In this document: positions 706 through 8,613 of the stretch, piece by piece
Numbering within the stretch: the first letter of the stretch is position 1
Layout: the number at the start of each line of letters is the position of its first letter
NCBI GenBank assembly: GCA_016931955.1
Contig: JAFGDV010000044.1
Location: 1 to 26,459 of the forward strand
Length of the DNA: 26,459 nucleotides
Source: Candidatus Altarchaeota archaeon
GTDB lineage: Archaea > Altiarchaeota > Altiarchaeia > IMC4 > QMZM01
Reading direction: 5' to 3'
Position numbers and translations under genes: made by a program
Notes under the pieces: generated by a model
The model's database searches: none
Seen by the model: the letters and a program-made list of their open reading frames with translations, nothing else
What the model was told of the DNA's origin: nothing

Positions 706-963
706 ATGACCGAACTGCTGACCTCAGACAAGGACATAAGCTGGTATCTAGAGGAGATCATATCCCATGCGGAAGAGATCCGAGAACTCTATGATCAAGG
801 AGATAAGATCTATCGGGGAAAGGAAACCTGCCGAGCACATGCTAGGGTGGAAGCATACGATCTGATAGTGCTTACAGCTGAGGCATTCCAGCTTCCAGGG
901 ATAATAGAGCAAGTACCTGGAGAAATACTAGAGAGATTCAACCAGAAGAGGCTAAAACAGTAG
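706..963 (+). CDS. small helical protein, unknown, paired with PqqD-like gene
   Basis: The 85-residue product is acidic and predicted mostly alpha-helical, with no signal peptide or membrane helix. It contains one Cys (in KETCRAHARVEAYDL) and resembles no family I can name. It starts seven bases after the PqqD-like gene, so they probably form a two-gene operon and it may act with it. Its last 12 bases overlap the 3' end of the convergent nitroreductase gene. Intact length, the operon position and normal codon use support a real gene. Confidence 0.6.
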   Translation: MTELLTSDKDISWYLEEIISHAEEIRELYDQGDKIYRGKETCRAHARVEAYDLIVLTAEAFQLPGIIEQVPGEILERFNQKRLKQ

Positions 964-1446
964 CTCTTTGATGGGTTTCCTGTCGGAGGATCTCTTCTTC
1001 TCTACTGGATGGCCTAAGGCCACCACAGCCATGAGTTCGCAGGATTCTGGGGCATTCAGGATTCTTTTCACCGCATCTTTGTTCTTCAGGATTTCGCCAA
1101 GCCAGACCGCTCCCAGTTGACGGGAGTGAGCAGCTAAGAGCATGTTCTGTATGCATGCGCCTACAGCCAGCACATCCTTGGTTCGATCATAGCTTGCTGC
1201 TTTATCCAAGAAGACCGCAATACAAACAGGCGCACACTGGATGACTTCACCGTAGTGGGTCAGCTTGGATAGGCCCCCCTTCACCTTAGGATTCCTCACA
1301 ATAGAAAACCTCCAAGGCTGATTGTTTAATCCGGACGGAGCCCACCTACCAGCCTCCAGTATTTCCCTGACAGCTTCTTCAGCCACGTCCTCTGAGGTGA
1401 ACTCGCGAACGCTCCTCCTGCTCTTTATTAGGTCCAGCACGTCCAT
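952..1446 (-). CDS. nitroreductase-family flavoprotein
   Basis: A 164-residue member of the nitroreductase (NADH oxidase-like, FMN-dependent) superfamily. The N-terminus has the FMN phosphate-binding pattern (LIKSRRSVREFT, residues 6-17). It is followed by the substrate/flavin segment AGRWAPSGLNNQPW (about 32-45), and the C-terminal part has the family motif GAVWLGEI and a final ..ALGHPVEKKR. Such enzymes are homodimers that use NAD(P)H for two-electron reduction of varied substrates; the substrate here cannot be told. The gene is compact for the family, and its 3' end overlaps the convergent gene by 12 bases. It diverges from the large membrane protein gene at 1485. Confidence 0.88.
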   Translation of the reverse strand: MDVLDLIKSRRSVREFTSEDVAEEAVREILEAGRWAPSGLNNQPWRFSIVRNPKVKGGLSKLTHYGEVIQCAPVCIAVFLDKAASYDRTKDVLAVGACIQNMLLAAHSRQLGAVWLGEILKNKDAVKRILNAPESCELMAVVALGHPVEKKRSSDRKPIKELLF

Positions 1447-1484: not shown

Positions 1485-3641
1485 ATGAGGAAAAACCCGA
1501 CGATACCGCTGCTGCTGATAGGCTTCGTCTCAGTCATAGGGCAGACCCTCCTCATGAGGGAGTTCATAGTAGTCTTCCAAGGAAATGAACTAACCCTCGG
1601 CTTAATACTTGGAAACTGGCTTCTACTGACGGCCATCGGAAGCTACATGGGGGGTATTTTGTCGGAGAAATACGATTTAAAAGAGAGGGACTTCGCAGTT
1701 TTGCAAGTAATCGCCGCCATCATCCTACCGGCTCAGATATTCCTCACCAGGGTCACAAGAAACCTCTTAGGCGTAGGCCAGGGCGAACTCCTCGGATTAG
1801 GGCAGATCCTCGGCTCAACATTCCTGATACTGGCACCCATTTGCATAATACTCGGCTTCCAGTTCTCCCTCGGCTGCAGGATCTACTCCAGAGAAAAAAA
1901 TGTGGAGAACATAGGCAAAGTCTACGTCCTAGAGTCAGCAGGTTCCTTGATCGGGGGGGTATTGTTCAGCTACCTGCTAGTAGGATACTTGAGCGCATTC
2001 CAGACCGCTTTCCTGGTGGCGATTCTGGCTTTGACTGCAGCTCACCAATTGCTCGAGAAAACAGAGAGATGGAGGCTGGGAGTCTACCTTTTCCTAGTCA
2101 CCTTGCTGCTTTGCTTCATGAACGCCTCCAGCCTGGAAAAACTATCCCACAACCTGCAATGGGGCGCCGACTTCATAAGCTCGGAAGACTCAATCTACGG
2201 CAACATAGCAGTACTGGAACGAAGTGGACAATACTCTGTCTACGAAAACGGTCTACTGCTTTACTCTACCGGAGACATAGAAAAAAATGAAGAAATCCAT
2301 TTCACGATGCTCGAGCATCCGAGCCCAGAGAAGGTCCTGTTGGTGGGTGGAGGCGCCGGGGGCGCATTAAAGGAGATACTAAAGCATCCCATAGAAGAGG
2401 TAGTTTACGTTGAACTGGATTCAATGATCCTTGAGGTTTCGAGGAAGTATATACCAGAGAAAGATCTCACTGCCTTGGATGATCCTCGAGTTATGGAGGT
2501 CATGGGTGATGGCAGGTTGCTCATCAAAGAAAGCAAAAACGTTTATGACGTGGTCATAGTGAGCCTCCCAGAGCCAAGCACCGCCCAGTTGAACAGGTTC
2601 TATACCCAAGAATTCTTCCAGGAGGTGGAGAGCATATTGAGCGATGATGGGATAGTGTCCATAACAATCCCCTCATCTGAAAGCTATGTTGGGAGGGAGG
2701 AGGGGATCCTTGGTGGAAGCATATACAAGACAATAAATACTGTTTTCCCGGAGGTGATCATTATCCCCGGGGAGAGAAGCATCATCCTCGCCTCAAAGGA
2801 TATTGGGGTGCTGACCTATGATCCAAGGACATTAAACAATAGAATGGAAGATAGGGGTGTTAAGACTGTCTTCCTCCATGAGCCCTACATAGGATACACG
2901 CTTTCAAGCGACCGGATAAACCACACCCTAAGTTCAATTAGTGATGATTCAAACAACGTAAACACGGACCTCAGACCAGTAGGCTACTACTATTACATGC
3001 TCCTCTGGAGTTCATTAACCGATGAAACGCCCATAACCTATGGGTGGGCTCTGATTACTGCATCCGCCATTATTCTTCTGATCCTTCTAAGGCACTCAAG
3101 GAGTCCAGTTATTCCACTAGCAACCCTCGTCGTAGGGCTTATAGGGATGACCCATGAAGTAATAATGCTCTTAGCATATCAGGCGTTGTACGGTTACGTC
3201 TATCATAAGATAGCCCTCATAATAGCTGCTTTTATGGGCGGCTTAGCCGTCGGGGCATTCTCCATGAACCAGATGACAGACAGGGTAAACAAAAGACTGT
3301 TTGCTGGGATACTGTTTTCAATGACCGCATACACGCTGCTACTGCCCACGATTCTGAAAGCGGCTGCTGTGTTTCCATCCGATTTTCTGTTCTCCCTGCT
3401 CGCAGCCGCCTCAGGTTTCCTTGTCGGCTTAGGATTCCCGTTAGCGAGTAAACTCTACCACCTAGAGGATAAAGGGATAACGGAGACTGCTGGAACAATC
3501 TATGCTTCAGACCTCTTTGGAGCATTCATGGGCACGATTCTCTCAAGCGCAATCCTGATACCGCTGATGGGGATAACGAACGTATGCATCTTATTGGCTG
3601 CTCTTAGTTTCATAGCTCTTACGATGGTCCTTATCGGGTGA
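1485..3641 (+). CDS. MFS-like membrane protein with inserted aminopropyltransferase-like domain
   Basis: The 718-residue protein has three parts. About seven membrane helices cover residues 1-215, a soluble spermidine-synthase-like Rossmann domain covers about 235-440, and about seven more helices run from about 510 to the end. Its Rossmann domain shows VLLVGGGAGGALKEI, then VVYVELD, then DPRVMEVMGDGRLLI. The catalytic DS/TDP motif of true polyamine synthases is replaced by VSLPEPSTAQLNRFY, so the key Asp is absent and ordinary aminopropyl transfer is unlikely. Helix segments GFVSVIGQTLLMREF and GLIGMTHEVIMLLAY look like paired MFS halves. Proteins of this make-up occur in bacteria and archaea with unsettled function. 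The gene overlaps the convergent regulator gene by 11 bases. Confidence 0.85.
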   Translation: MRKNPTIPLLLIGFVSVIGQTLLMREFIVVFQGNELTLGLILGNWLLLTAIGSYMGGILSEKYDLKERDFAVLQVIAAIILPAQIFLTRVTRNLLGVGQGELLGLGQILGSTFLILAPICIILGFQFSLGCRIYSREKNVENIGKVYVLESAGSLIGGVLFSYLLVGYLSAFQTAFLVAILALTAAHQLLEKTERWRLGVYLFLVTLLLCFMNASSLEKLSHNLQWGADFISSEDSIYGNIAVLERSGQYSVYENGLLLYSTGDIEKNEEIHFTMLEHPSPEKVLLVGGGAGGALKEILKHPIEEVVYVELDSMILEVSRKYIPEKDLTALDDPRVMEVMGDGRLLIKESKNVYDVVIVSLPEPSTAQLNRFYTQEFFQEVESILSDDGIVSITIPSSESYVGREEGILGGSIYKTINTVFPEVIIIPGERSIILASKDIGVLTYDPRTLNNRMEDRGVKTVFLHEPYIGYTLSSDRINHTLSSISDDSNNVNTDLRPVGYYYYMLLWSSLTDETPITYGWALITASAIILLILLRHSRSPVIPLATLVVGLIGMTHEVIMLLAYQALYGYVYHKIALIIAAFMGGLAVGAFSMNQMTDRVNKRLFAGILFSMTAYTLLLPTILKAAAVFPSDFLFSLLAAASGFLVGLGFPLASKLYHLEDKGITETAGTIYASDLFGAFMGTILSSAILIPLMGITNVCILLAALSFIALTMVLIG

Positions 3642-4980
3642 ACTTTATAGGCTTCGTTCCAATCTTCCGGATCAATCCATCATCGACCATCCTACCCAAC
3701 GTGTTCCTCAGATGGTACTCTGAGATGCTGAACTCATTTTTCAGCTGGGACACTGTCTTCGGTTCTCTCATCTCCTTCAACAATGCGTTTTCTATATAGG
3801 CCTTAGACAGCTTCTTCAGGATTGGTATCCTAATTCCAGACCTCTTCTCCAGTATCCGAAGGCGGCCTATGAGGGCCTGCCAACGGAAATTCGGATCCCT
3901 CTGCTGTTTCACGTATTCCAAAAAAAGCATGTCCCAGCAAAGCTTCTCTTCCTTGAGTATCTTCTCACAATCCACGATAACGCAGGGCTCACTTGAAAGA
4001 GACTTGGACAGAAAGGTATTCTCAGGCGAATAATAGTAGGTCGTCTTTTCTTCTCTTGATTTGGATTCACCCACGGATTCCATGATCTGTGACTGAATGT
4101 TCAGCCAGGGATCAACGACGTCAAAGTGCAGAGCCAGCTCGTCTACGCTAAACAGATCCATCCTGTGATCGTTTTTTACATAAAACTCACAGACCTTAGA
4201 TAGCATCTCTTCACCTTCAGCGCACTTTAGAGAATGGATGAATATCTCCTCAATCATCAGTTCCTTTGGGGGTACATAGTAGTAGGAGAACTCCGATGAA
4301 TAATCCACATCAAACTCATTAAACCTTGAAAATGCAGTCAATGAACCATTAACTGAATTCTTCGTCTTCAGCAGCTTTCCCTCAGGCGAAGACCATACCT
4401 GAAAAGTCTTGGACATACTCTCAGACAAGTCTTTAATAGTCTTTAAAAATCCTATGAGGCTCCATCTGCCCTCTTTTAACCTGAAAAGCCCATGTTTCTG
4501 GTCCACTAAAGGCCTCAGCTCTTTGAGGTACTTGTAGACGGATGGGGGGGATATATGGCATTCCACGGCAATCTGGTCTATGCTCCGCCAGTCAAGAAGG
4601 GACTGCAATACCAACAACCGTTCTCCGACAATTGACTCAAGACTAAAATCCTCATGAAGCAAGTGGTGAAGATAATCAGCAATGTCGTTCTCCTTCAATT
4701 TAACAGTATTATTCTCCCCCCCTACAAGGGAAAACTCCTTCAGCTTTCTTATCGATAGGTATATTGAAACCCTTGAACGCTGTGTTTCCTCCCTCAACTC
4801 CTTCAGGCTTTTTCCTCCTTTCACCAAAAGCCTCTGGAGGATAAGGACATCAGTATTATTAAGGATCAGACTCTTAGGCTTCTCGTATTCTTTCGGCTTC
4901 TCATCCCTTTCCCTCCTCTTCTCGACAGCTTCCTTAAGTATGCTCCAGTCACTCAAAGATTCCATCTTACTCAAGCTCAC
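3631..4980 (-). CDS. multi-winged-helix DNA-binding protein, last gene of the Tat/AmmeMemo unit
   Basis: This 449-residue soluble protein has three winged-helix-like segments. They lie at about residues 42-95 (..LKELREETQRSRVSIYLSIRKL..), 118-170 (..IDQIAVECHISPPSVYKYLKEL..) and 395-449 (..VSQLKNEFSISEYHLRNTL..). The middle, about 180-390, is not recognisable and may sense a ligand or partner. A basic, charged N-terminus (KRRERDEKPKEYEKPK) precedes the first one. The start GTG at 4980 lies seven bases after the Memo-AMMECR1 stop; an ATG at 4965 is an alternative. Position and strand make it the last gene of the operon starting with tatA at 8613. It is probably a transcription regulator, target unknown. 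Confidence 0.7.
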   Translation of the reverse strand: MSLSKMESLSDWSILKEAVEKRRERDEKPKEYEKPKSLILNNTDVLILQRLLVKGGKSLKELREETQRSRVSIYLSIRKLKEFSLVGGENNTVKLKENDIADYLHHLLHEDFSLESIVGERLLVLQSLLDWRSIDQIAVECHISPPSVYKYLKELRPLVDQKHGLFRLKEGRWSLIGFLKTIKDLSESMSKTFQVWSSPEGKLLKTKNSVNGSLTAFSRFNEFDVDYSSEFSYYYVPPKELMIEEIFIHSLKCAEGEEMLSKVCEFYVKNDHRMDLFSVDELALHFDVVDPWLNIQSQIMESVGESKSREEKTTYYYSPENTFLSKSLSSEPCVIVDCEKILKEEKLCWDMLFLEYVKQQRDPNFRWQALIGRLRILEKRSGIRIPILKKLSKAYIENALLKEMREPKTVSQLKNEFSISEYHLRNTLGRMVDDGLIRKIGTKPIKFTR

Positions 4981-4987
4981 AAAGCCA

Positions 4988-6481
4988 TTATCTGAAATCG
5001 CTCTCTTTAAATGCGATAACCTTGTATCTGTAGATCTTCACATCAGGCTTCCTCCAGCAGTCGCTTGGAAGAAAGGCCTTATTACAGAGGCTGGACAGAA
5101 AATCCTCCTTTTCAGGAATCTGCTCCCAGACCTGTGGGAGATAGGTTGCACCCCTGCCTTTGTAGTCCAAGATTATACCGTCAACACCTGGTTGAATCCT
5201 CTCAAGATATTCCTCAGGTGAATCGGCGGTTATCAATTCAGGTAACGTGAGAACTGAGACCTCTATTTCTATATCGTCGAGTTCATTAGCAGTCACCGGC
5301 GAGAACCGAGGATCATTGAATGCCGCGTTTATGGCGTTATCCCTCACGTCCAAGTACAGCGGCTGGATGGGCTCAAGGTGACCGATGCAACCCCTAAGCT
5401 GGCCGTTCTTCTCCAGGGTTACGAAGACGCCCTTTTTTTCCCTCAACTTGGGGTCGTCTGTCTTCGGCTCAAATTTCTTCCCCTCCCCAACATAGAGCTC
5501 TACTGTATCCCTAGCCACCTCTAATAGATACTTTTTTTGTTTTTCACTCAATTCTTCTCCAGGTTTTTCTTCGCCTGAGTAGAAGGCTATTGAAGCATAT
5601 CCTACAACGCCGGATCTGTCACCTGTCACATCACCGGAGTTCATATACTTCAGCAACTTAGTAGACCAGTTAAGCTTCTCCGCGATCTCCATCGTCACGA
5701 GAACGGGAAAGTAACCACACATCTCACACCCCTCAGCCTTAGCATCATCTAAGGCCACGATGGATTCAACGCAGTAATTATCCAACGTTAAGGCTTCGTT
5801 GTAGGGGTGATAATGTGATAAGTCCGTGCTTGCAACGATAAGAGTTCTCTCATCCAAGTGTTTTATGATCAGATCAGAGAATTCATCGATTTCATCCCGA
5901 GACATTCTACCCACTATTACTGGAACAATCTCAAATTCCTTCAGGGAATACTGCAGAAAAGGTATCTCTATCTCGGCAGAATGCTCTTTAGAGTGTGCAT
6001 CCGGTATCGTCGAAATCAGCTTGGATTCCTCCCTGAGTTTCTTCGCCAAGGAGGATATCTTGACCTCCCCAAGGGGGGTCTTATAGTGGGTGTAATTGGA
6101 TATAGACACACCATCCAACGGATAATGATGTGACGGCGCAAGTATGATGACTGTGTCATAATCCCCGCCTTCGATCTGTTTGAAGGCGTGGGCTGCTACC
6201 TGGCCAGAATATGCGTAGCCCGCATGGGGGACAACAAGCGCCTTTATCCTCCCAAGCTCCTGCTTCTCGGCCTTAGAGAAGAAGCCCTCTAACTGCCTTG
6301 AAAGCGCATCCTTTGATTCGGGATACCAGCTGCCAGCTATCACAGACTCGCGAACGTATTTTTTTTCAGAGGTCATGTTGCCACCCCCCTCCTCTGGCAG
6401 AGTAGTGCACCCAACCAGGAATATTAAAGATATGGCATAGAACAATAAAATACAATCCCTTATTCTAACCCCAGAATCCAT
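4988..6481 (-). CDS. lipoprotein Memo-AMMECR1 fusion (AmmeMemoRadiSam system)
   Basis: A 497-residue fusion of a Memo domain (about 43-305) and an AMMECR1 domain (about 315-495). Memo is related to metal-dependent extradiol dioxygenases and keeps its putative ligands: His86 in VVPHAGYAYSG, His118/119 in APSHHYPLDG, and a Cys in CEMCGYFPV. AMMECR1 keeps its signature LRGCIGHLEP (about 362-371). Neither domain has an established reaction. Ahead of Memo is a signal peptide with hydrophobic core and lipobox LVGC (Cys25), then the linker TTLPEEGGGN, so the protein is probably membrane-anchored outside the cell. The start ATG at 6481 is preferred for its GGAAGGT ribosome-binding sequence and good signal peptide; 6514 is a longer alternative. 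It overlaps the radical SAM gene by 17 bases. Confidence 0.9.
   Translation of the reverse strand: MDSGVRIRDCILLFYAISLIFLVGCTTLPEEGGGNMTSEKKYVRESVIAGSWYPESKDALSRQLEGFFSKAEKQELGRIKALVVPHAGYAYSGQVAAHAFKQIEGGDYDTVIILAPSHHYPLDGVSISNYTHYKTPLGEVKISSLAKKLREESKLISTIPDAHSKEHSAEIEIPFLQYSLKEFEIVPVIVGRMSRDEIDEFSDLIIKHLDERTLIVASTDLSHYHPYNEALTLDNYCVESIVALDDAKAEGCEMCGYFPVLVTMEIAEKLNWSTKLLKYMNSGDVTGDRSGVVGYASIAFYSGEEKPGEELSEKQKKYLLEVARDTVELYVGEGKKFEPKTDDPKLREKKGVFVTLEKNGQLRGCIGHLEPIQPLYLDVRDNAINAAFNDPRFSPVTANELDDIEIEVSVLTLPELITADSPEEYLERIQPGVDGIILDYKGRGATYLPQVWEQIPEKEDFLSSLCNKAFLPSDCWRKPDVKIYRYKVIAFKESDFR
6374..6394 (-). promoter_or_regulatory. strong internal ribosome-binding site and ATG inside the Memo-AMMECR1 gene
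   Basis: On the minus strand GAGGAGGGGGGTGG (6394-6381) precedes an in-frame ATG at 6376 by a few bases. Starting there would give a 462-residue Memo-AMMECR1 without signal peptide or lipobox. The G-rich stretch also encodes the EEGGG linker, so the match may be a by-product of codon content. Confidence 0.35.
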
Positions 6482-7598
6482 GAATACCTTCCCCGCAATT
6501 TTTACATCTTCCATCTTCTATCCTGTTTTCTACTACATAGAAGCCCTGCCTCTCAATCAATAAGTTCTTACACGAAGGACAATAGGTGCTCTCAAAGCCC
6601 AATCCAGGGAGGTTGCCGACATAGACGTATCTTAAGCCCGAATCTAAAGCCATATTCCTCGCGGTCTTGAGGGTCTCTGCGGGGGTGGGAGCTAGATTGC
6701 TGAGCTTGTAGGCAGGCCTGAACCTCAGGAAATGCACTGGGTGATTAACTCCGATGTTGTCTACGACCCAGTCCACGAAGGCCTTTATCTGCTCGTAATC
6801 GTCGCTCCACCCCGGTATCACCAGGTATGTGAGCTCGAACCACTTATTTTCCTCCTTCAGGACAATGATCGAGTCAAGGATAGGCTGCAGACTCCCCTCA
6901 GTGAGGCTCCTGTAGACCCTATTAGAGAAACCCTTCAGGTTCACATTACCTGCGTCAAGAAACCTGCAGAGCCCCTTCAGGGGTTCTGGATTAATATACC
7001 CGCAGCTGACTATCACGTTCTTTATGCCTTCCTCCTTGGCGAGCTTCGCCGTATCGAGCATGTATTCATAGAATACTGTCGGCTCAGTATAGGTATAAGC
7101 TATTGACCTGGCATTGTATCTCTTCGCGTAAGCAACCACATCCTCCGGCGACAGGTCAAGGTTCTGGGTTTCATCAGGCTTCGCCTGGGATATCTGCCAG
7201 TTCTGACAGTACTTGCACCGCAGACAGCAGCCTGCCGTCGCGATTGAAAAAGCATTTGTTGAAGGCAAGAAATGAAATAACGGTTTTTTCTCTATTGGGT
7301 CCAGATGAGCAGCACAAGGGTTCCCGTAGCCGAGAGTATATAGTTTTCCACCCTTGTTCATCCTTACGCCGCATAAACCCCTCCCGTTATCAGCTATAAC
7401 GCATCTATTAGGGCATAAAGCACATCTCACAATGTTATCGCCCAAGCCTTCATAGAAAAGAGCCTCCCTGAGGGAAACCTCGGGCAGTGCAGTACTCGCC
7501 TGCTTCAATAGATAGTCTGCGGCAATAACCGACACACCTAATCCAGCCCCCACTACGGCAGCCTTCTTGATGAATTCTCTTCGGGTTATACCCTCCAT
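6465..7598 (-). CDS. AmmeMemoRadiSam radical SAM enzyme with twin-arginine signal
   Basis: A 377-residue radical SAM protein of the family that co-occurs with AMMECR1 and Memo. The SAM/4Fe-4S motif is Cys124, Cys128 and Cys131 (CCLRCKYC), followed by QNWQIS as usual in this family. An N-terminal Cys cluster (C59, C62, C66, C76) and a C-terminal zinc-ribbon-like pair (C340/C343 and C365/C368) may hold more metal. The N-terminus ITRREFIKKAAVVGAG is a textbook Tat signal: twin Arg, Phe, Lys, then a hydrophobic core to about residue 30. The tat genes lie immediately upstream, three bases away. Its reaction is unknown. An exported radical SAM enzyme would need SAM and electrons outside, which is odd; a folded-cofactor reason for Tat use fits. 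Confidence 0.9.
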   Translation of the reverse strand: MEGITRREFIKKAAVVGAGLGVSVIAADYLLKQASTALPEVSLREALFYEGLGDNIVRCALCPNRCVIADNGRGLCGVRMNKGGKLYTLGYGNPCAAHLDPIEKKPLFHFLPSTNAFSIATAGCCLRCKYCQNWQISQAKPDETQNLDLSPEDVVAYAKRYNARSIAYTYTEPTVFYEYMLDTAKLAKEEGIKNVIVSCGYINPEPLKGLCRFLDAGNVNLKGFSNRVYRSLTEGSLQPILDSIIVLKEENKWFELTYLVIPGWSDDYEQIKAFVDWVVDNIGVNHPVHFLRFRPAYKLSNLAPTPAETLKTARNMALDSGLRYVYVGNLPGLGFESTYCPSCKNLLIERQGFYVVENRIEDGRCKNCGEGIHGFWG

Positions 7599-7601
7599 TC
7601 T

Positions 7602-7760
7602 CTAACCTGCCAGATCATCATCCTCTAAAAGGTCGTCTACTGCTTTCTTGAATTCATTGACGGCTTCCGCAAGAGACCTCGCCAATTCCGGCAATTTCTC
7701 CGGACCGAATAGGATTACGGCCATGATAAATATCAAAAGCAGCTCTAGTGTTCCTATCAT
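7602..7760 (-). CDS. tatA: second TatA-type translocase subunit (52 aa)
   Basis: The short protein begins MIGTLELLLIFIMAVILFG and continues PEKLPELARSLAEAVNEF. That is one membrane helix, the FG-P hinge and an amphipathic helix, the standard TatA/TatB layout. Its C-terminal tail is short and acidic (EDDD). The ATG overlaps the tatC stop in an ATGA quartet, implying translational coupling, and the radical SAM gene begins three bases after its stop. It differs from the first TatA (8461-8613), whose tail is basic, so the two may share roles as TatA and TatB do in bacteria; that is inference. Confidence 0.88.
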   Translation of the reverse strand: MIGTLELLLIFIMAVILFGPEKLPELARSLAEAVNEFKKAVDDLLEDDDLAG

Positions 7761-8464
7761 CTACGCCCACCCATAATCCAAGATATGAGGATGCTTACCT
7801 CGTACAATAATATTATGGGAACAGCCACTAATATCTGGGTGAACACCGAAGGATCAGTTATCACAGCAGCCACTATGAAGGCCCCAAGGACCACATACCT
7901 CCTCCTAGAACTCAAGACCATATGATCCACCAACCCCAGCCTTGATAGTACAGCAACGATCAGAGGCAGCTGAAAGATTAAGCCGAATAAAACAACCAAG
8001 GTGATGGCAAAACTGAAGGCTTGGTTGAGGCTGAACATGGGAAGCGCTACAGGATATGAAACATTTATGAGAAAGTTCATTGTCACGGGCAGAAGGAGCC
8101 AGTAAGCGAAGACATTGCCTGCTAGAAACAACAGAGTGGATGAGATCAACAACGTCAATGTGAGGGTTTTTTCCCTCCCCAAGAATGCTGGCGCCACAAA
8201 AGACCAGAACTGATAGACCAAAACAGGAAAACTGAAGACTAAACCCAATAGCAGTGAAACCTTCAACTCAACCATCAACGCTTCTTGGGGAGAAATCACT
8301 ATCAAGAACACATTTCCCATCAGATCCGCTCTAACCCTCTCCAATAGAAAAGGGACCACCGGAAAGGAGACAATGGATGCAAAAACGAATGCAAAAAATG
8401 ACACCAGAAACCTCTTCCGCAGTTCTCGCAGATGCCCGAAGACTGGCATTTTCTCCTGCTTCAC
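7757..8464 (-). CDS. tatC: TatC twin-arginine translocase receptor
   Basis: The 235-residue protein has six predicted membrane helices and the TatC landmarks. These are HLRELRKRF near the N-terminus, the SPQEALMVELK loop, YQFWSFVAPAFLGREK in the second periplasmic/cytoplasmic turn, and AAVITDPSVFTQ followed by ..VPIILLYE near the end. TatC binds the twin-arginine signal of folded substrates. The GTG start at 8464 overlaps the upstream tatA stop by four bases. An ATG five codons later (MPVFGHLREL) is an alternative. The clearest substrate in view is the radical SAM protein encoded just downstream. Confidence 0.95.
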   Translation of the reverse strand: MKQEKMPVFGHLRELRKRFLVSFFAFVFASIVSFPVVPFLLERVRADLMGNVFLIVISPQEALMVELKVSLLLGLVFSFPVLVYQFWSFVAPAFLGREKTLTLTLLISSTLLFLAGNVFAYWLLLPVTMNFLINVSYPVALPMFSLNQAFSFAITLVVLFGLIFQLPLIVAVLSRLGLVDHMVLSSRRRYVVLGAFIVAAVITDPSVFTQILVAVPIILLYEVSILISWIMGGRR

Positions 8465-8613
8465 TTTCCAGCTTCCTTCTCAGCCTTCTTTAAACCCTTC
8501 CTAAACTCTGCGACGGCTTCTCCGAGAGAGCGGGCAAGCTCGGGAAGACGCTTGCTCCCGAACAATAACAACAATATTAACAGTATTACGAGAATCTCAG
8601 TCCAACCAATCAT
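8461..8613 (-). CDS. tatA: TatA-type translocase subunit (50 aa)
   Basis: A 50-residue TatA: a single membrane helix (MIGWTEILVILLILLLLFG), the hinge, then SKRLPELARSLGEAV and a basic tail (KGLKKAEKEAGK). The ATG at 8613 is chosen over the longer frame to 8652 because TatA proteins begin right at this helix and because a TATA-like box sits about 28 bases upstream. It heads the six-gene minus-strand unit and overlaps the tatC start. Confidence 0.92.
   Translation of the reverse strand: MIGWTEILVILLILLLLFGSKRLPELARSLGEAVAEFRKGLKKAEKEAGK

Follow-up and report, generated by a model that had tools for sequence, protein, structure and literature searches.

The stretch of DNA analyzed here (the window: 26,459 nucleotides, contig JAFGDV010000044.1 of a Candidatus Altarchaeota archaeon, assembly GCA_016931955.1) carries a gene cluster that we read, with a probability of about 60%, as an extracytoplasmic variant of AmmeMemoRadiSam, the set formed by an AMMECR1 protein (TIGR04335), a Memo protein (TIGR04336) and a radical S-adenosylmethionine (SAM) protein (TIGR04337). 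These exported or tethered proteins, together with a membrane protein in which a spermidine-synthase-like domain is inserted into a major facilitator superfamily (MFS) fold, hereafter MFS-SpeE, would carry out SAM-dependent modification outside the membrane. The genes, signals, clade, co-occurrences and intact catalytic motifs reported below were observed in sequences, mostly from metagenome-assembled genomes (MAGs), while localisation and topology are predictions.

Organization of the gene cluster

The minus-strand run at 3631-8613 is present in full and comprises, in the direction of transcription, tatA, tatC, a second tatA, the radical SAM gene, a Memo-AMMECR1 fusion gene and a winged-helix gene. 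An earlier reading of these letters (the original prediction) had described six minus-strand genes with overlaps or gaps of seven bases or fewer, and both the coordinates and the curated models bear this layout out; the successive distances are an overlap of 4, an overlap of 4, a gap of 3, an overlap of 50 and a gap of 7 bases, the overlap between the radical SAM and fusion genes being 17 bases instead of 50 when the inner fusion start, ATG 6481, is used.

The radical SAM gene (6465-7598, minus strand) reaches 358 bits with TIGR04337 (cut-off 220) and the fusion gene (4988-6514, minus strand) 273 bits with TIGR04336 (cut-off 26) and 210 bits with TIGR04335 (cut-off 99); all three families are therefore found above their cut-offs in adjacent or overlapping genes at 4988-7598, as defines AmmeMemoRadiSam. 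The first tatA (8461-8613, minus strand, 50 amino acids, starting at ATG 8613) and the second (7602-7760, minus strand, 52 amino acids) score 70 and 58 bits, respectively, with TIGR01411 (cut-off 53.9) and both match PF02416, and tatC (7757-8464, minus strand) scores 185 bits with TIGR00945 (cut-off 132.7) and matches PF00902, so that one TatC and two TatA above cut-off make up a twin-arginine translocation (Tat) system. The original prediction missed the convergent gene at 1485-3641 (plus strand), which encodes MFS-SpeE and is part of the system; its 3' end overlaps that of the winged-helix gene by 11 bases.

Identical gene order and both export signals recur in a relative (G003, locus L032) whose proteins are 57-66% identical to those of the window; the cluster is thus not a chance arrangement. 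The genome to which the window belongs (G000; 1.55 Mb, 92% complete) encodes one TatC, one Memo, which is the anchored fusion of the window, two TIGR04337 proteins and a second, free-standing AMMECR1 (G000:C41:7377-7895).

A radical SAM protein with a Tat signal

The radical SAM protein begins with MEGITRREFIKKAAVVGAG, and its Tat signal, MEGITRREFIKKAAVVGAGLGVSVIAADYLL (7509-7598, minus strand), scores 26 bits with TIGR01409 (cut-off 16.7), as the original prediction had proposed on seeing twin arginines. The signal motif, TRREFIKK, is followed by a hydrophobic helix (6-34 in the AlphaFold 2 model), the arrangement of a Tat substrate. Over the whole genome the protein is the sole match at E<=10, Tat substrates being counted here by the TIGR01409 model alone, which misses unusual signals. 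The model of the protein (predicted local distance difference test, pLDDT, 93.7) has pyruvate formate-lyase activating enzyme (3cb8) as its closest solved fold; the partial TIM barrel and the CX3CX2C motif (C124, C128 and C131) are those of the radical SAM superfamily. In the alignment, CX3CX2C is intact in 67 of 67 rows of the exported-type clade group and in 47 of 47 others, and additional invariant residues are likewise kept in all exported radical SAM proteins.

Homologues were gathered by searches of relatives and by a scan of GTDB genomes; because the window protein served as the seed of that scan, the share of exported forms is no census. Signal classes were assigned by rule and by eye to 114 distinct sequences. 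A Tat signal was recorded for 45 of them, counting L023, which runs into a contig end and takes its class from the almost identical neighbour L026; 8 carry a Sec-type signal or anchor, in 10 the N-terminus is split, in 4 it is short, and the remaining 47 have no signal. In a maximum-likelihood tree of the domain alone, 2 changes account for the group without signals, compared with a mean of 36 for shuffled labels. The exported-type sequences form essentially one group, with a Shimodaira-Hasegawa-like approximate likelihood ratio test (SH-aLRT) value of 98; a small number of rows without a signal also sit at the base of this group. Its members come from two families of archaea and about 16 phyla of bacteria. 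The window protein is one of these members; the second, signal-less copy of the same genome (contig C26, L102:8771-9784) falls into the signal-less group. Most signals in the exported-type clade are of the Tat kind, and a few members have a Sec-type signal or an anchor instead; since both kinds occur in one clade, the compartment and not one particular motif is the shared trait. Two or three exported-type paralogues stand side by side at some loci (L056:2258-7098, L079:3432-5988, L085:4768-7155 and L073:1056-7032).

A predicted membrane anchor on the Memo-AMMECR1 fusion accompanies the exported-type radical SAM protein

The fusion has an N-terminal hydrophobic segment and, as the original prediction stated, a lipobox, the sequence arrangement of a lipoprotein; it reads LIFLVGC at residues 30-36, with LVGC at residues 33-36 and the cysteine codon at 6407-6409 (minus strand). 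ATG 6481 is an alternative start. The corresponding lipobox in G003 reads CLIGC, and other relatives have a plain transmembrane (TM) anchor. The Memo motifs PHAG, SxDLSH and CG are conserved. In the order to which the archaeon belongs, the fusion carries an N-terminal membrane segment in 8 of the 8 genomes having both the fusion and an exported-type radical SAM protein and in two others (G006 and G017), whereas six relatives that lack the exported type, including G001 of the same genus, have a fusion without it (p=0.007). Exported or anchored Memo-AMMECR1 proteins were also found at L047, L049, L053, L070 and L076.

The extracytoplasmic location originally predicted for both proteins is upheld, as a prediction, by the curated Tat model, by the single signal-bearing clade and by the anchored fusions in 8 of 8 genomes. 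Close relatives lacking both signals and the tat neighbours had been named in advance as the finding that would speak against it; taken literally such relatives exist, G001 being one of them, but the traits covary, and relatives without signals, such as G001, show no TatC, no Tat-type radical SAM protein and no full MFS-SpeE. As these three come and go together, the extracytoplasmic reading is favoured.

TatC varies with the exported-type radical SAM protein

The sample of the order comprised 24 genomes, incomplete MAGs in which single absences mean little. Nine of them have an exported-type radical SAM protein (G000, G003, G007, G009, G018, G019, G020, G021 and G023), that of G021, truncated by a contig end, being assigned to this type by its sequence and by the anchored fusion next to TatC. 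TatC is present in 8 of these 9 genomes vs 1 of the other 15 (p=1e-4), and among order genomes it was not found in members of the window's family that lack the exported radical SAM protein. The single genome with TatC and no exported-type radical SAM protein is G013; in the vicinity of its tatC (L181, G013:C289) are two frames with Tat signals, each about 950-1020 amino acids long, that is, ordinary large Tat clients.

A dedicated exporter had been part of the original prediction, and this part can be kept in a narrower form. In its favour, a PF00902 search of the archaeon's own genome returned a single TatC, and the Tat model matches nothing but the radical SAM protein in 3 of the 4 tatC-bearing genomes of the window's family (G000, G003 and G007), the signal of the fourth, G009, being cut by a contig end; on the other side, further Tat-signal proteins occur in other families of the order (G018, G019 and G013). 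It is therefore plausible that Tat is dedicated to the radical SAM protein in the window's family, and not in the wider group. The count of tat neighbours, which had been suggested as a check, is likewise divided: of the 8 genomes of the order with both TatC and an exported-type radical SAM protein, 7 have tatC beside the radical SAM or Memo-AMMECR1 gene (G000, G003, G007, G009, G018, G019 and G021), but tatA lies near only 6 of 59 exported-type loci and most have no tat neighbours.

MFS-SpeE, a membrane partner of the exported form

The protein encoded at 1485-3641 has seven TM helices, a spermidine-synthase-like domain (residues 217-516, 2133-3032, plus strand; PF01564) and seven more TM helices (AlphaFold 2 model, pLDDT 86). 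The middle of the model matches the SpeE structures 1uir and 3anx and has their fold; the membrane part, with the two 6-helix halves of an MFS protein, matches SV2A, 6g9x, FLVCR1 and GLUT1 (Z 24-30 over 330-350 residues, root-mean-square deviation 3.5-4). Over 21 homologues, lysine and arginine make up 18% of predicted inside loops and 6% of outside loops, a bias by which the SpeE-like domain is predicted to lie outside. The net charge of that domain was dropped as evidence on topology, being -24 in the window and near zero in most homologues.

In the window GGGDG is replaced by GGGAG and DxxDP by SLPEP, so the acids of spermidine synthases are missing; no aligned family member has the acid of GxG(D/E)G, the first Asp of DxxDP is replaced in nearly all, and we rejected spermidine synthase as an identity for the protein. 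The adenosyl-binding motifs ELD and D(G/A)R are mostly kept in the family. With the acids lost and these motifs kept, spermidine synthesis is unlikely; binding of SAM, and not the production of a polyamine, is the most likely role of this domain.

MFS-SpeE lies near 27 of 59 exported-type radical SAM loci and near 0 of 30 signal-less loci. In the order it is found in 8 of 9 genomes with the exported type vs 0 of 15 without (p=1e-5), a count in which G007 is included for an incomplete match at the end of a contig, and full-length MFS-SpeE occurs in archaeal relatives only together with the exported-type radical SAM protein. Bacterial genomes whose locus shows no MFS-SpeE have the gene elsewhere in 25 of 27 cases. 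Of 11 bacterial control genomes one, G089, has MFS-SpeE, and directly behind it lies a radical SAM gene with a twin-arginine signal; after reassignment of G089, 26 of the 28 bacterial genomes that have the exported type possess the gene vs 0 of the 10 that do not (p=1e-7). The control group is thus limited to 10 genomes, several of small size, and the co-occurrence counts are uncorrected for phylogeny. In G019 a short predicted membrane protein matching no Pfam family (L105:7843-8112) is encoded between MFS-SpeE and the Tat-signal radical SAM protein. In the window, a small open reading frame at 429-698, with a weak winged-helix-like match (PKMT_2nd, 18.8 bits, below cut-off), lies near MFS-SpeE and a nitroreductase-family gene (952-1446, minus strand).

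The winged-helix protein

The last gene of the run (3631-4980, minus strand) encodes a protein with a TrmB-like N-terminus (PF01978, 30 bits) and a second helix-turn-helix at its C-terminus. It neighbours Memo-AMMECR1 in the family whether the fusion is anchored or not (L184, L185, L186, L190 and L106), and homologues adjoin unanchored, presumably cytoplasmic fusions in G001, G002, G005 and G011. Accompanying both forms, the gene is tied to Memo-AMMECR1 and not to export; the control of the exported system that had been ascribed to it is not supported, and we rejected an export-specific regulator on the same grounds.

Neighbours of the exported form in bacteria

FMN_bind and 4Fe-4S membrane proteins are encoded at 18 of 59 exported-type loci vs 0 of 30 signal-less loci; in several Omnitrophota and Spirochaetota it is FMN_bind plus Fer4_5 proteins (NosR/RnfG/NapH-like) that adjoin the exported-type radical SAM gene (L048:2484-3845, L053:4372-5781, L055:4449-6002, L063:4509-5807 and others). 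They are candidate electron donors outside the membrane in these two phyla. As a universal electron donor FMN_bind was rejected for the window, its own genome G000 having no match.

About 10 relatives within the clade, mostly Omnitrophota, have a radical SAM core without a signal of its own. Directly upstream of it a split N-terminal segment (...PHEAKYWK) is found, either on a small single-TM protein (L048:3832-4032, L052:5741-6034, L063:5768-6061, L064:5777-5995 and L066:5774-6010) or as the C-terminal end of an FMN_bind membrane protein (L050:4893-5732, L055:4449-6002 and L065:5070-6035). A programmed frameshift joining anchor and core was considered and rejected, as these genes share no common slippery site; their stop and start codons are close or overlapping, which makes two separate proteins the likelier arrangement.

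In Poribacteria, Armatimonadota and others the exported-type radical SAM gene adjoins genes for DUF362 proteins, several with a Tat signal (L036:4884-5894, L049:4782-5762, L054:4939-5970, L072:1051-2028, L082:7140-8177 and L085:6998-8236).

Proposed mechanism and alternative explanations

If the set acts outside the membrane, the radical SAM protein would receive its 4Fe-4S cluster in the cytoplasm and be exported in the folded state by the TatAC of the same gene run, and the Memo-AMMECR1 fusion, judging by its signals and covariation, would be tethered to the outside of the membrane through a lipid or a TM helix. MFS-SpeE might offer a SAM-binding site on the outside and hand SAM over, or export it through the MFS pore; alternatively, it might methylate or otherwise alkylate the same substrate. 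Electrons for the radical SAM cluster would come from the membrane side, and the whole set would use SAM to modify a secreted or surface molecule; the surface or wall component of the original prediction may be such a substrate. The recurrence of the set in about 16 bacterial phyla suggests, at the level of sequence, that SAM-dependent chemistry is possible at the outward-facing side of the cell membrane. That this is a general pathway of archaea and bacteria, in which radical SAM catalysis on the outer face is fed by a dedicated MFS transporter and an outside SpeE-like domain receives the SAM, is an extension that we put forward only tentatively.

Several observations weigh against an extracytoplasmic SAM-dependent system of this kind. 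No supply of SAM outside archaeal cells is known to us, and the chemistry of radical SAM enzymes depends on a strong reductant; FMN_bind gave no match in the archaeon's own genome, and the DUF362 and FMN_bind partners are restricted to certain lineages. Memo lies within 4.5 kb at just 10 of 59 exported-type loci, the fusion is anchored in two genomes of the order (G006 and G017) that lack the rest of the set, and the export of the signal-less cores in Omnitrophota is unexplained. The limits of the co-occurrence counts given above belong here too.

Were the radical SAM protein and the fusion to act inside the cell, the twin-arginine helix and the hydrophobic segment would be tethers or misread N-termini and tat a chance neighbour. 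The signal-less system is the common form in archaeal relatives, close relatives have no signals and the split cores in Omnitrophota have none either, all of which would agree with this; but the match to the curated Tat model is above cut-off and unique in the genome, two kinds of signal occur in one clade, TatC varies with the type of radical SAM protein, and positive charge at the N-terminus, ahead of the helix, would in any event place the rest of the protein outside, so that we find an inside location improbable. The export of the trio is compatible with TatAC being the organism's general exporter, placed beside the radical SAM gene by operon drift, as its single tatC, the other Tat signals in G018, G019 and G013 and the lack of tat neighbours at most exported-type loci (tatA at 6 of 59) might indicate. 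This is somewhat unlikely, given that the radical SAM protein bears the sole Tat signal found in G000, G003 and G007, that TatC was not found in members of the family without the exported form and that tatC adjoins the radical SAM or Memo gene in 7 of 8 order genomes with TatC and the exported form.

Two further explanations accept export and differ as to the chemistry. The conserved PHAG, SxDLSH and CG of Memo, and the DUF362 and polyferredoxin neighbours in bacteria, are what a metal- or redox-handling surface complex would show, built from a Memo-type metal site and an Fe-S protein with its SAM chemistry vestigial; this is very doubtful, because CX3CX2C and the other invariant residues are present in every exported radical SAM protein and a second protein of SAM-binding type, MFS-SpeE, tracks them. 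MFS-SpeE could instead be an extracytoplasmic methyl- or alkyltransferase in its own right, with the surface substrate of the exported trio or a related one as its target, SAM reaching the outside through another transporter. A fungal enzyme, NHMT, provides a precedent as a 7TM-SpeE methyltransferase for secreted proteins (PMC10349129), and ELD and D(G/A)R are kept in the SpeE-like domain, but such a role leaves both the complete 14-helix MFS fold and the source of outside SAM unexplained, and we consider it unlikely. An exported set working with MFS-SpeE on a substrate outside the membrane stays our preferred reading.

Significance and comparison with known systems

Conservation of AMMECR1 and Memo extends as far as humans. 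AMMECR1 has been listed among the top-priority uncharacterised archaeal proteins (PMC6393860). The exported form with its fixed SAM-binding membrane partner offers a concrete setting, in which the substrate would be outside and both SAM and electrons must reach the outside. An exported AmmeMemoRadiSam, or a similar exported radical SAM protein, was not found in the papers searched, to which subscription papers did not belong; among the latter, the comparative study of the Memo superfamily by Burroughs et al. 2019 (cited in PMC7159879) may mention exported forms. Because the searched literature holds no exported enzyme of this kind, the view of radical SAM chemistry as confined to the cytoplasm would change if our reading is true. 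New here is MFS-SpeE as a nearly constant membrane partner of exported AmmeMemoRadiSam.

The window resembles the known AmmeMemoRadiSam in having all three proteins above cut-offs and encoded together; it differs by the Tat signal of the radical SAM protein, by the fused and anchored Memo-AMMECR1, by TatAC and MFS-SpeE as members of the set, and by a radical SAM clade apart from the signal-less form. The core of the radical SAM protein has its closest solved structure, in sequence and fold, in pyruvate formate-lyase activating enzyme (3cb8 and 3c8f), from which it differs by an extra Cys-rich part at the N-terminus, a CPxC...CxxCG part at the C-terminus and the export signal. The fusion is homologous in its domains to human MEMO1 (7kq8), with the Memo motifs conserved, and to AMMECR1-family structures (1vaj, 1wsc and 1zq7), but joins both domains in a single chain that bears a lipobox or TM anchor.

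MFS-SpeE shares its domain make-up with the fused MFS/spermidine synthases of NF037959 (59 bits, cut-off 40) and with the polyamine aminopropyltransferase PRK03612 (193 bits, below the cut-off of 472), and differs from both in having lost the GxG(D/E)G acid and the first Asp of DxxDP. The fungal NHMT, an LPMO histidine methyltransferase that is a membrane 7TM-SpeE-like SAM enzyme for secreted proteins (PMC10349129), is similar in its seven N-terminal TM helices, in a SpeE-fold domain that begins at about residue 216, in the lost GxG(D/E)G acid and in its link to extracytoplasmic (secretory) substrates, a resemblance of domain order and lost acid rather than one drawn from a comparison of sequences; the archaeal protein is set apart from it by a second set of seven TM helices and by the MFS fold.

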